Notes under the pieces: generated by a model
The model's input: only the letters and a program-made list of their open reading frames with translations
Told to the model about the DNA's origin: nothing
Database searches by the model: none
Shown here: positions 44,955 to 48,415 of the stretch, piece after piece
Layout: each line of letters starts with the position of its first letter
How positions within the stretch are numbered: the first letter of the stretch is position 1
From: Rhizobium sp. Q54
GTDB lineage: Bacteria; Pseudomonadota; Alphaproteobacteria; UBA2966; CAIVPW01
Direction of reading: 5' to 3'
Assembly (NCBI GenBank): GCA_945947575.1
Contig: CAMEYM010000016.1
Location: forward strand, 1 to 64,000
DNA length: 64,000 nt
Translations under genes and position numbers: made by a program

Positions 44955-46307
44955 CTAGCCGTTGGCGACGACGTTGAGGAGCGAGGTGTGCACCTTCAGC
45001 GTGCCGTTGTATTCGATGTAGCCGAGCTTGCGGAACTTGTTCATGAAGTGGTTGATGCGGGATCGCGTCGTTCCCACCCGCGCGGCGAGCGTCTCTTGGG
45101 TGACTTTGGGAATGACGGTTTCGAATCCGCCCTCCTTGGCGAAGTTGGCTAGGAGCAGAAGCACGCGGGCCAGCCGGACCTCGCTGGAGTGGAACAACTG
45201 ATCCACCAGTTCGGCCTCGAACTGGATGTTGCGCCCCAGCAGGTAAGCCGTGAATACCTCGGAGAGGTCGGGATGCTCACGCAGGACCCGGATCATGGCC
45301 GCCTTGGGGATCACGGTGACGGCCGAGTTCACTGCGGCCCGGGCGGTTGTCATGCGCAGCGGTTGACCGGCAAGGCAACCCTCGCCGAAAAAATCGCCAC
45401 CCCCAACCTCGGCGAGGATGGCTCTCTTGCCCGTTTTCGATGTGACCGCCAACTGAACGCTGCCCTTGTCCAGGTAGAAGACTGCGTCAGCAGGCTCTCC
45501 CTGCCGAAATATCAGCGCGCCTCGCCGCATGTCTTGAACGGACTTGGTGCGTCCCAGCGCTGCCAAGAACTTTGCCGTGTCAAAAACGGGCTGCCCGCTT
45601 GTCTCGCCAGGCGCCGGAGTTGACTTCGTTGGCGCGCGGGCCGGCGAAACGCTCTTTGCCAGCACCGATGCTTTCGATCGAGACAACGGTAGTCCGCCGC
45701 TCAATCTCTGCAGTTCAACCGAAATCTTGTCGGGCGGCAGAACGAAATCGATAAAGCCGGCCTTCTGAGCGCTGAGAGGCATGCTGCCTACTTCGGCAGA
45801 CATGTCCTGCGCAAAGGTCGTCCCTCCCCTTGCCTTGATGTGCTTGCATCCTTCCGTGCCGTCGCCGCCGTACCCCGAGAAGATGATGCCGACTGCGCGC
45901 GCCCCCATTGCCTCGGCTAACGAAGTCAGGAAGACATCTACTTGCTCGTCCCTCTTGGCGCGCGCGGGGCTGATCTCGAACGCATGGCCTTCTATTAGAA
46001 GGTCCGCGTTCGCAGGACTTACATAGACGTGGTTGGCCCGGATCGGCATCGCCGCCAAGGCCGCTACTACGGGCATTTTTGTATGCCACGACAGAACTTG
46101 AGCCAGCTGCCGATCTGCCGTCGGCAGAATATTGGTAACGATGACGAAGGCCATGCCTGTGTTAGGCGGCAGGGCGTTCAAGAGCGCCTTATAGGCGCTC
46201 AAGCCTCCGGCCGAGCCGCCGATTCCAACAATGAACTTGGGAGCCTTGACCCTAGATCGCCGGGACAATTTCGCCCGTGCGCGTTTGGCCGGTTTTGAGG
46301 TTGCCAC
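44955..46307 (-). CDS. CheB methylesterase-like domain fused to cNMP-binding/Crp domain
   Basis: The 450-residue protein has an N-terminal CheB C-domain (24-203): nucleophile Ser32 in GIGGSAGGL and Asp149 in SGYGGDG. The catalytic His position, which reads QH in FVVVQHL..P of the family, is Asn59 in FVIVTNILP. A Ser/Pro linker (205-243) leads to a cyclic-nucleotide-binding domain (about 247-345, FRQGEPADAVFYLDKGSVQL, DFFGEGCLAGQPLR) and a Crp-type HTH (VTQETLAARVGTTRSRINHF). GTG start at 46307 after GAGG. It lies 54 bp after kaiC on the same strand. It may be a non-enzymatic sensor-regulator. Confidence 0.88.
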   Translation of the reverse strand: MATSKPAKRARAKLSRRSRVKAPKFIVGIGGSAGGLSAYKALLNALPPNTGMAFVIVTNILPTADRQLAQVLSWHTKMPVVAALAAMPIRANHVYVSPANADLLIEGHAFEISPARAKRDEQVDVFLTSLAEAMGARAVGIIFSGYGGDGTEGCKHIKARGGTTFAQDMSAEVGSMPLSAQKAGFIDFVLPPDKISVELQRLSGGLPLSRSKASVLAKSVSPARAPTKSTPAPGETSGQPVFDTAKFLAALGRTKSVQDMRRGALIFRQGEPADAVFYLDKGSVQLAVTSKTGKRAILAEVGGGDFFGEGCLAGQPLRMTTARAAVNSAVTVIPKAAMIRVLREHPDLSEVFTAYLLGRNIQFEAELVDQLFHSSEVRLARVLLLLANFAKEGGFETVIPKVTQETLAARVGTTRSRINHFMNKFRKLGYIEYNGTLKVHTSLLNVVANG

Positions 46308-46361
46308 GGACTGCCTCGCGTATCGTGGGGGCGTCAGCCTACGAGCGGCGCGCGCTTCGGC

Positions 46362-47963
46362 CTATCGCGACCGCATGCGCCCGGCCTTCGCCGCGCTTCC
46401 GCCTGGCGCGACTCCCTTGCGGCCGCGGCGGGCTTTCACCGCCGGCGGCAAATGTCGTTGCGCGGGCGCCCTCGCTCCTGCCGCGCCGACCGTTCCTTCC
46501 CGTTGGTCAAGTGCGGCGACATCCATTGGCTGGATCTCAATTCCATCATCGCTCAAGACCAACTTTTGGACGTCACTGGAGTGCGCCATGCCACGAGACT
46601 TGACGACGTAAAGGCCGCGAGTGCGCTTTCTACCCGCGTCTTCTTCCGTTTCTCTCACTACGATCCAAGTATCGATCAAAGACGAGACGCCGATCTCACC
46701 GCTGGTGTCATTTTCAGCGGACGACGACACCAAGCTGGTGAAAAACGCGGTTACGCCATTGGACTTCAGAAGATCGATCATCCGGGTGGTCATCGACTGA
46801 ATCTCACGTTGCTTTCCTTCGCCGATCAGGCTTGTCAGAGGGTCAATGACAACCGCTGCTGGCTTGAATTCTGCGATGATCTTGTACAAGCCAAGTAAAT
46901 GCATCTCCAAGCCAACGAACGATGGCCGAGTGGCGGTAATCCTCAGAAGCCCTTTCTTTACCAGCGGCTGCAAATGAATGCCGATCGAACTCATGTTCTG
47001 GATGAGTTGCCCCGGAGATTCCTCGTACGACAAGAAGAGGCACCGCTCCCCCCGTCGGCACGTTTCATTCGCGAACGCAGCCGCAAGGCTTGTCTTGCCG
47101 GTGCCCGCCGTACCTGAGGCGAGCACCGTGCTGCCTCTAGTATATCCCCCACCCTTGAACATCTTGTCCAACGATGGAATTCCTGTCGAAACCCTTTTGG
47201 CTGTGCCTGGTTGATCGAGTCCCGCAGAGGTGATGGGAATTACCGATAGCCCGTTGTCGTCGATGACGAAGGGATATTCATTCGTCCCGTGTCTTGAGCC
47301 GCGGTACTTAACTACGCGAATTCTACGGATCGAGATTTGGTCATCAACTCTGTTGTCCAGCAGGACTATGCAATCGGAAACGAACTCCTCCAGGCCATGG
47401 CGAGTATAAGAGCCTTGTCCCGGCTCGCCGGTAACGATTGCCGTAACTTGCTTCTCCTTGAGCCAGCGGAAAAGTCGCTTTACCTCGAGGCGAAGAACGC
47501 CAGGGTCGGTGAAGGCGCCAAAGAGCGATTCAATAGAATCCAACACAACGCGTTTGGCGCCGATGGAATCAATGGCGTGTTCGAGGCGAACCAGTATTCC
47601 CTCAATATTGAAATTGCTCTCCTGAATATCTCTGCGCTCCAGGACGGCGTGCTCAATCAGGATCCTCTTTTCAGACACGAGCCGCTGCAAATCCAGGCTC
47701 AGCGAAGCCACATCTTTTTGAAGTTCCTCCGCGGTCTCTTCAAAAGACATGAAGATGCCAGGCTCGCCGTAGTTGATCGCGCCCTTGATCAGGAAATCGA
47801 TCCCCAAGAGAGTTTTGCCCGCACCGGCGCCTCCGGAGACCAAGGTAGTTCTGTTCTTTGGCAACCCGCCTTCCGTAATCTCGTCCAGGCCTTTGATGCC
47901 GGTAGGGCACTTGGTGAGTCGGTTGTGCCTCGACAACTTTGGCATCTTGGGAGTCTTGGGCAT
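46362..47963 (-). CDS. KaiC-family double-domain ATPase
   Basis: The 533-residue protein has two RecA-like KaiC domains. CI: GIKGLDEITEGGLPKNRTTL, Walker A GGAGAGKT (44-51), catalytic Glu pair in FEETAEE. CII: GIPSLDKMFKGGGYTRGSTV, Walker A GTAGTGKT (284-291), YEESPGQL, and GVSSLIDTW where Ser427/Ser428 align with the KaiC phosphosites Ser431/Thr432. A basic tail of about 45 residues follows. Non-cyanobacterial KaiC proteins work in stress and timing signalling, usually with KaiB; no kaiB or kaiA is here. The CheB-Crp fusion gene follows at once. AGGAG precedes the ATG. Confidence 0.93.
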   Translation of the reverse strand: MPKTPKMPKLSRHNRLTKCPTGIKGLDEITEGGLPKNRTTLVSGGAGAGKTLLGIDFLIKGAINYGEPGIFMSFEETAEELQKDVASLSLDLQRLVSEKRILIEHAVLERRDIQESNFNIEGILVRLEHAIDSIGAKRVVLDSIESLFGAFTDPGVLRLEVKRLFRWLKEKQVTAIVTGEPGQGSYTRHGLEEFVSDCIVLLDNRVDDQISIRRIRVVKYRGSRHGTNEYPFVIDDNGLSVIPITSAGLDQPGTAKRVSTGIPSLDKMFKGGGYTRGSTVLASGTAGTGKTSLAAAFANETCRRGERCLFLSYEESPGQLIQNMSSIGIHLQPLVKKGLLRITATRPSFVGLEMHLLGLYKIIAEFKPAAVVIDPLTSLIGEGKQREIQSMTTRMIDLLKSNGVTAFFTSLVSSSAENDTSGEIGVSSLIDTWIVVRETEEDAGRKRTRGLYVVKSRGMAHSSDVQKLVLSDDGIEIQPMDVAALDQREGTVGAAGARAPAQRHLPPAVKARRGRKGVAPGGSAAKAGRMRSR

Positions 47964-48415
47964 ACCTACTGGCTCCTGGCGTGATCGTGGTCTAGCGGGG
48001 TCCTACGGCAGCGGGTGCGGGCCCACCGCCTGACGCCCGAAGCCGACGGAGGCAAGTTCGTCGCCGCCAATCTTTTTTCGGCTGCGGCGCACCCACATCG
48101 GCGTCGGCCGTGCAGTACGGCACTCTCCAGGAAGGACGAGAAGTTCAATTGGGCACACTCGGCCTGCTGGAATCAGACGATTCCAGACCACTCCCTTCGG
48201 CCCGTTCTCGAGGAAGGTCGGTCAGACAGCTCCGAAGTCGGGATCGTCGGCTCCTAGCGACGATCAGAAGCCGTTTCGGGCCCAACGTCCCGCCGAAACT
48301 GGCTGGCACAGCGAACAGGCCGCTTTGGCATGGTCACATGGACGGCTTCTTCGCCGCCAGGTTTGAGAGGCAACTCGGCGCATCCCCGCAGGGCGCACTT
48401 CACGCGCAGCGCGCG
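47964..48415. other. Gap of about 450 bp upstream of kaiC
   Basis: No credible gene on either strand: open frames here lack recognisable protein character. It contains the 20-bp palindrome at 48167-48186 and is presumably the kaiC promoter region on the minus strand. Confidence 0.4.
48167..48186. promoter_or_regulatory. Palindrome upstream of kaiC, possible Crp/FNR-type site
   Basis: CTGGAATC AGAC GATTCCAG is a perfect 8+4+8 palindrome about 200 bp upstream of the kaiC start. The 5-4-5 core (GAATC-N4-GATTC) has the geometry of Crp/FNR family sites, and a Crp-type HTH is encoded in the operon. The link is inferred. Confidence 0.4.

Follow-up and report, generated by a model that had tools for sequence, protein, structure and literature searches.

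A CheB-Crp fusion protein encoded directly after kaiC, and a kaiC-cheB gene pair conserved across distant bacterial groups

Introduction

A gene pair in which kaiC is followed by cheB, with no kaiB beside it, recurs in distant bacterial groups, and in the 64,000-nucleotide stretch of alphaproteobacterial DNA analysed here (the window) the CheB domain of the pair is joined to a Crp-type regulator. The distribution of the pair suggests an undescribed way for KaiC to control genes. From the sequence comparisons we lean towards a reading in which the CheB domain acts as an adapter with swappable outputs, here a Crp-type regulator, and reads KaiC through a putative contact.

The cyanobacterial protein SasA consists of a KaiB-like domain and a histidine kinase. 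Schmelling et al. (2017) found that bacteria other than cyanobacteria mostly lack the SasA/RpaA output route, and raised the question of a different transcription factor as the reader of the timer (PMC5520375). In Methylorubrum extorquens, the clusters kaiC1-kaiB2-kaiB1-kaiR1 and kaiC2-kaiR2 have a phosphoserine-dependent stress output (PMC8069551). These clusters resemble the window in that a non-cyanobacterial kaiC is accompanied by a putative regulator gene, but unlike in the window no CheB has been reported in them (PMC8069551). Among the papers available outside subscription, we found none linking KaiC with CheB or a methylesterase.

Results

The kaiC and fusion genes of the window

The upstream gene encodes a KaiC (Pfam PF06745 twice, 2.9e-111), and the ORF of the fusion protein starts 54 bp after its stop codon, both on the minus strand (Table 1). 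The fusion protein carries, in order, CheB_methylest (6e-46), cNMP_binding (4e-18) and HTH_Crp_2 (3e-10), all three intact, over the Pfam cut-offs and without a frameshift; no receiver domain was found in it by the Pfam scan. ORF coordinates and Pfam matches therefore bear out the arrangement proposed in an earlier note on this DNA, namely kaiC, a 54-bp gap and a single CheB/cNMP/Crp-HTH protein. The genome of the window (2.49 Mb, 95.7% complete) holds a single two-domain KaiC and a single CheB, and neither a KaiB, a second CheB nor a methyl-accepting chemotaxis protein (MCP; MCPsignal) was found in it, so that the absence of KaiB noted earlier extends to the whole assembly. A promoter and terminator scan at the window gave nothing above chance.

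Table 1. Features of the kaiC-cheB-crp locus, in positions of the window.
Feature	Coordinates	Strand	Basis
kaiC, 533 aa, two RecA-type KaiC domains, CheB-linked KaiC clade	46362..47963	-	Pfam, best solved relative, tree
Ser427-Ser428 codons of KaiC, aligned with R. sphaeroides KaiC S413/S414	46680..46685	-	Alignment
CheB-cNMP-Crp fusion protein, 450 aa, GTG start	44955..46307	-	ORF and Pfam
CheB methylesterase-type domain, residues 27-198, without a receiver in front	45714..46229	-	Pfam, AF2 fold, alignment
Ser32 codon, triad nucleophile position	46212..46214	-	Alignment
Asn59 codon AAT at the catalytic His position	46131..46133	-	Alignment
Asp149 codon, triad acid position	45861..45863	-	Alignment
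Cyclic-nucleotide-binding-type domain, residues 260-345	45273..45530	-	Pfam
Crp-type helix-turn-helix, residues 378-438	44994..45176	-	Pfam
Perfect palindrome CTGGAATC-AGAC-GATTCCAG, ~0.2 kb upstream of kaiC	48167..48186		Possible regulator site, weak evidence

The best solved relative of the window KaiC is that of Rhodobacter (Cereibacter) sphaeroides (8db3/8dba; phmmer 6e-153), and it is ~49% identical to the R. sphaeroides plasmid kaiC product. The Walker A motifs at 44 and 284 and the Glu pairs at 75 and 314 are all kept, and the assignment of Ser427/Ser428 in CII as adjacent phosphosites, first made from the sequence, holds in the alignment with the R. sphaeroides phosphosites S413/S414 (PMC10076222). 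The two systems have in common the adjacent Ser-Ser phosphosites, both ATPase sites and the lack of KaiA (PMC10076222), whereas the window has no KaiB in locus or genome and carries cheB in kaiB's place. Most CheB-linked KaiCs (about 500-530 aa) do not have the long coil found at the C-terminus of the 568-aa R. sphaeroides KaiC. The window KaiC is thus a member of the KaiBC-type family by its domains and phosphosites, but it has no KaiB.

A recurring kaiC-cheB gene pair

Relatives of the window CheB were collected by a species-genome scan with the fusion protein followed by tblastn, to which two loci found through KaiC and the window itself were added. The 32 CheBs form one clade and are 57-76% identical to the window CheB. 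KaiC lies directly upstream on the same strand in 29 of them (window counted), a biased sample since most loci were fetched through the CheB query, and in the other three (L106, L126 and L143) no adjoining kaiC was found. The upstream KaiCs are 70-80% identical to that of the window, except for a contig-end fragment (L085, 62%), and the two ORFs mostly overlap or lie within 100 bp of each other. Most KaiC-linked CheBs are standalone proteins of about 190 aa with an intact Ser-His-Asp triad. The hosts belong to Acidobacteriota, Bdellovibrionota, Bacteroidota, Planctomycetota, Betaproteobacteria, Melainabacteria (Obscuribacter) and Alphaproteobacteria, the last with one locus (L230) besides the window. 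Many of the loci are contigs of metagenome-assembled genomes (MAGs), some with frameshifts (L100, L235). No kaiC-cheB pair was found on plasmids, whose KaiC matches are all under 60% identity, or on viral contigs.

KaiC-first surveys covered about 1,400 genomes sampled from Bacteroidota, Alphaproteobacteria, Bdellovibrionota and Acidobacteriota. New KaiCs of the clade had cheB next door in both loci with downstream sequence (L230 and L235; a small sample), and the contig of a further one (L236) ends there. Among 60 loci with a KaiC of 46-62% identity, such a cheB occurs in none and kaiB lies within 1.5 kb in 49. In the loci examined, no kaiB was found beside any KaiC of the CheB-linked clade. 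KaiB is absent from 18 of the 28 genomes that carry the pair; the other ten have KaiBs, none of them adjoining it. The neighbourhood survey proposed in the earlier note thus shows a link that is real, free of KaiB beside the pair and conserved across distant groups. No MCP over the cut-off was found in the window genome or in 13 of 23 other carriers; therefore, chemotaxis is not the use of the pair.

Several loci depart from the simple pair. In two Bdellovibrionota loci (L094:5519-6274 and L235:639-1166) the pair has another CheB next to it, which is more distantly related (about 41% identity). The Mucilaginibacter psychrotolerans locus L143, which has no kaiC, contains a KaiB-like ORF 1.7 kb from its clade CheB (128-412 and 2155-2721). 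A group of Bacteroidota KaiCs has no kaiB within 1.5 kb; at three of its loci (L203, L206 and L229), kaiC adjoins a response-regulator ORF that looks NarL-like by eye.

A probable exchange of KaiB for CheB

In the KaiC tree, rooted by midpoint, the CheB-linked KaiCs form one clade (SH-aLRT 100, branch 0.32) nested among kaiB-linked KaiCs, the nearest rows being two kaiB-linked loci of Bdellovibrionota (L237 and L238). Owing to this nesting, cheB seems to have replaced kaiB, and with midpoint rooting the direction from kaiB to cheB is the likely one. The KaiC-linked CheBs likewise form one clade (99/99), which excludes chemotaxis CheBs and the CheB portions of CheB-CheR-PAS kinases, and the distances among the KaiCs correlate with those among the CheBs (Mantel r 0.77, 0/5000 permutations). 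Positions specific to the KaiC clade are enriched in a CI stretch that we take, from the alignment and S. elongatus KaiC, to be the KaiB-docking B-loop (4/16 versus 21/443, one-sided p 0.008; a modest test of a region picked from prior knowledge). The four positions, 112, 114, 118 and 119, are fixed differently between the two KaiC groups. Together with the place of cheB at that of kaiB, the changed docking loop suggests direct contact between KaiC and CheB.

Fusions of CheB to output domains

Besides the window protein, CheB-Crp fusions occur in three acidobacterial MAGs (L073, L074 and L075, the last broken off by the contig end), each with kaiC upstream. In the tree of Crp proteins, the window Crp half falls into an alphaproteobacterial clade, where it groups with a Crp paralogue from the same genome (SH-aLRT 92; 67% identity in the alignment used for the tree), whereas the acidobacterial fusions group with free-standing acidobacterial Crps. 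The window also stands apart from the acidobacterial fusions in the CheB and KaiC trees, and grouping the fusions is rejected (AU test p 0.004). A single ancestral CheB-Crp fusion is therefore disfavoured, and on these trees the same two families were probably joined twice independently, in the window lineage and in Acidobacteriota; alternatively, the Crp half may have been exchanged after one fusion. The kinship of the Crp half with own-genome paralogues also ties the contig to its genome and, with the kaiC-linked fusions of the three MAGs, eliminates a one-off or an assembly artefact. Among 396 Acidobacteriota genomes searched for further Crp fusions, only the seed genome was recovered. Elsewhere in the window genome (G000:C2:132041-135077, L056), three free-standing Crps lie within about 3 kb and are 51-64% identical to the fused Crp half, the closest being its likely kin.

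The Crp part resembles CRP/FNR regulators such as GlxR and M. tuberculosis CRP in having a cNMP domain followed by HTH_Crp_2, but differs from them in its N-terminal CheB domain and in the ligand cassette around Arg318-Met319. Where cAMP-binding CRP proteins carry R-[S/T] in the phosphate-binding cassette, the fusion reads GEGCLAGQPLRMTTA, in a region of ambiguous alignment. The palindrome upstream of kaiC is the only exact match in the window, and its 4-base spacer is as in FNR-type sites; no regulator site common to the upstream regions of the four fused loci was found, and the palindrome is absent from the other three.

KaiC-linked CheBs carry other additions as well. In a Flavobacterium MAG (L083:449-1876), a CheB with the full triad is fused to HisKA-HATPase in a SasA-like layout, and in Obscuribacter (L080:408-1823) the CheB carries a 280-aa C-terminal tail without a Pfam match, the end of which is highly charged. 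At 6 of the 23 acidobacterial loci retrieved through KaiC, kaiBC has a Crp regulator of this family as a neighbour, far above the chance expectation of about 0.5 (our own estimate, allowing for as many as two dozen of these genes over 5 Mb), which hints at Crp proteins as a recurrent KaiC output. Acidobacterial kaiBC operons with an adjoining Crp of this family are L128, L144, L248, L252, L254, L256, L257 and L259.

The CheB domain and its lost histidine

The AF2 model of the fusion protein (mean pLDDT 79; built without residue 1 and numbered one lower) shows the CheB catalytic-domain fold, at 2.0 Å from 1chd and 1.9 Å from 3sft, and its second half matches Crp/GlxR chains. In the alignment with the solved CheBs 1chd, 3sft and 6ymz, the positions of the Ser-His-Asp triad (S165-H191-D287 in P. 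atrosepticum; PMC7698151) are occupied by Ser32, Asn59 and Asp149, as had been read from the window sequence. The substitution of His by Asn is expected, from the triad mechanism, to abolish esterase activity. Of the changes QH to TN and TH to TN, the former takes more than one base change, so a lone sequencing error is unlikely to account for the whole motif, in which Asn59 is encoded by AAT on the minus strand.

Alignment of this position across the family, as the earlier note had advised, places the loss within the Crp fusions. The His, and with it the full triad, is kept in 28 of 28 clade CheBs outside the Crp fusions, including the histidine-kinase fusion (L083) and the tail fusion (L080), and in only one of the four Crp fusions. 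That one is L074; the sister sequences L073 and L075 have Gln at position 59, and L073 also has Glu in place of Asp149. The restriction of the loss to Crp fusions (3/4) is significant by Fisher's test (p 0.0007), but represents only two independent losses. Judged from these sequences, the loss of the His appears to follow the joining to Crp, to be dispensable for the KaiC link and to be a secondary trait of the Crp fusions. The idea that a dead triad defines the system thus fails, as the standalone KaiC-linked CheBs, the kinase fusion and the Crp fusion L074 all have the full triad. The earlier note had expected its reading to be refuted by fusion relatives with an intact His and no kaiC nearby: L074 does have the His, but kaiC lies directly upstream of it.

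The window CheB part is like chemotaxis CheB (1chd, 6ymz) in its catalytic-domain fold and in its Ser and Asp positions, but it has no receiver, carries Asn in place of His, is fused to Crp and comes from a genome without an MCP. By triad, receiver and MCP, it is not a chemotaxis CheB.

Discussion

A conserved, KaiB-free link between KaiC and CheB that is tied to output domains makes a route from the state of KaiC through the CheB domain to transcription the best reading of the locus. In the form in which it was first proposed, this route ran through a dead CheB; the conserved pair and its output domains uphold the route, but the dead CheB is not what defines the system. We propose that the CheB domain takes over the role of KaiB or of the KaiB-like domain of SasA: it would dock on the KaiC ring and read whether and how the ring is phosphorylated or which nucleotide it holds. 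The domain may also, as the earlier note suggested, bind methylated or phosphorylated signals. Most lineages would use a free CheB with the full catalytic triad as the reader. In the window it would be joined to a Crp-family regulator, which could pass the state of KaiC in one step to DNA binding, and the esterase His might then have been lost because only docking was needed. The physical contact between KaiC and CheB, its dependence on phosphorylation and the DNA targets are predictions from sequence. The layout is like that of SasA in that a small KaiC-facing domain is fused to an output, most closely in the Flavobacterium CheB-HisKA-HATPase protein; it differs in that the domain has the CheB fold rather than a KaiB-like thioredoxin fold, that the window output is a DNA-binding Crp and that KaiC binding is putative. 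We hold with more reserve, as a nearly even call, that kaiC-cheB constitutes a third type of KaiC system alongside KaiABC and KaiBC, in which KaiB has been exchanged for a CheB ring reader with interchangeable outputs.

The main rival to the adapter reading is that the two proteins are enzyme and substrate: an active CheB esterase or deamidase would covalently modify KaiC or a target shared with it, and the CheB of the Crp fusions would be a dead remnant or a dimerization unit. The confirmed catalytic-domain fold and the intact triad of all 28 clade CheBs outside the Crp fusions speak for it, and the retention of the triad in every standalone CheB argues for a primary enzymatic role. Nevertheless, the window CheB is still 57-76% identical to its active relatives, which implies that constraint persists after the loss of the triad, and a reader role better accounts for the joining to output domains; we therefore consider the enzyme-substrate pair unlikely.

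Less likely still is a horizontally spread operon, the products of which would act in one stress pathway without contact, with CheB serving the network of CheB-CheR-PAS kinases that several loci have nearby. The patchy distribution and the 73-80% KaiC identity across phyla suggest transfer, and kinases and receivers lie near some kaiC-cheB pairs; however, apart from two-component genes the loci share no recurrent third gene family, no such kinase adjoins the pair in the window, and the position of cheB at kaiB's place and the changes in the KaiC docking loop suggest direct contact. It is very improbable that the fusion gene of the window arose by accidental in-frame joining, has no function and is decaying: it is the sole fusion in its class among the genomes examined and has lost its triad, but the same two families were fused twice independently, and its three domains are intact, over the Pfam cut-offs and without a frameshift.

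On the adapter reading, the CheB-Crp and CheB-kinase fusions are concrete candidates for the reader and output of non-cyanobacterial KaiC, and since some carriers of the pair are cultured (Mucilaginibacter), the output question is testable. A demonstration of binding would make kaiC-cheB a third KaiC class. If the reading is true, the CheB fold would serve as a signalling adapter outside chemotaxis, and a direct link from clock or energy state to transcription would exist outside cyanobacteria.
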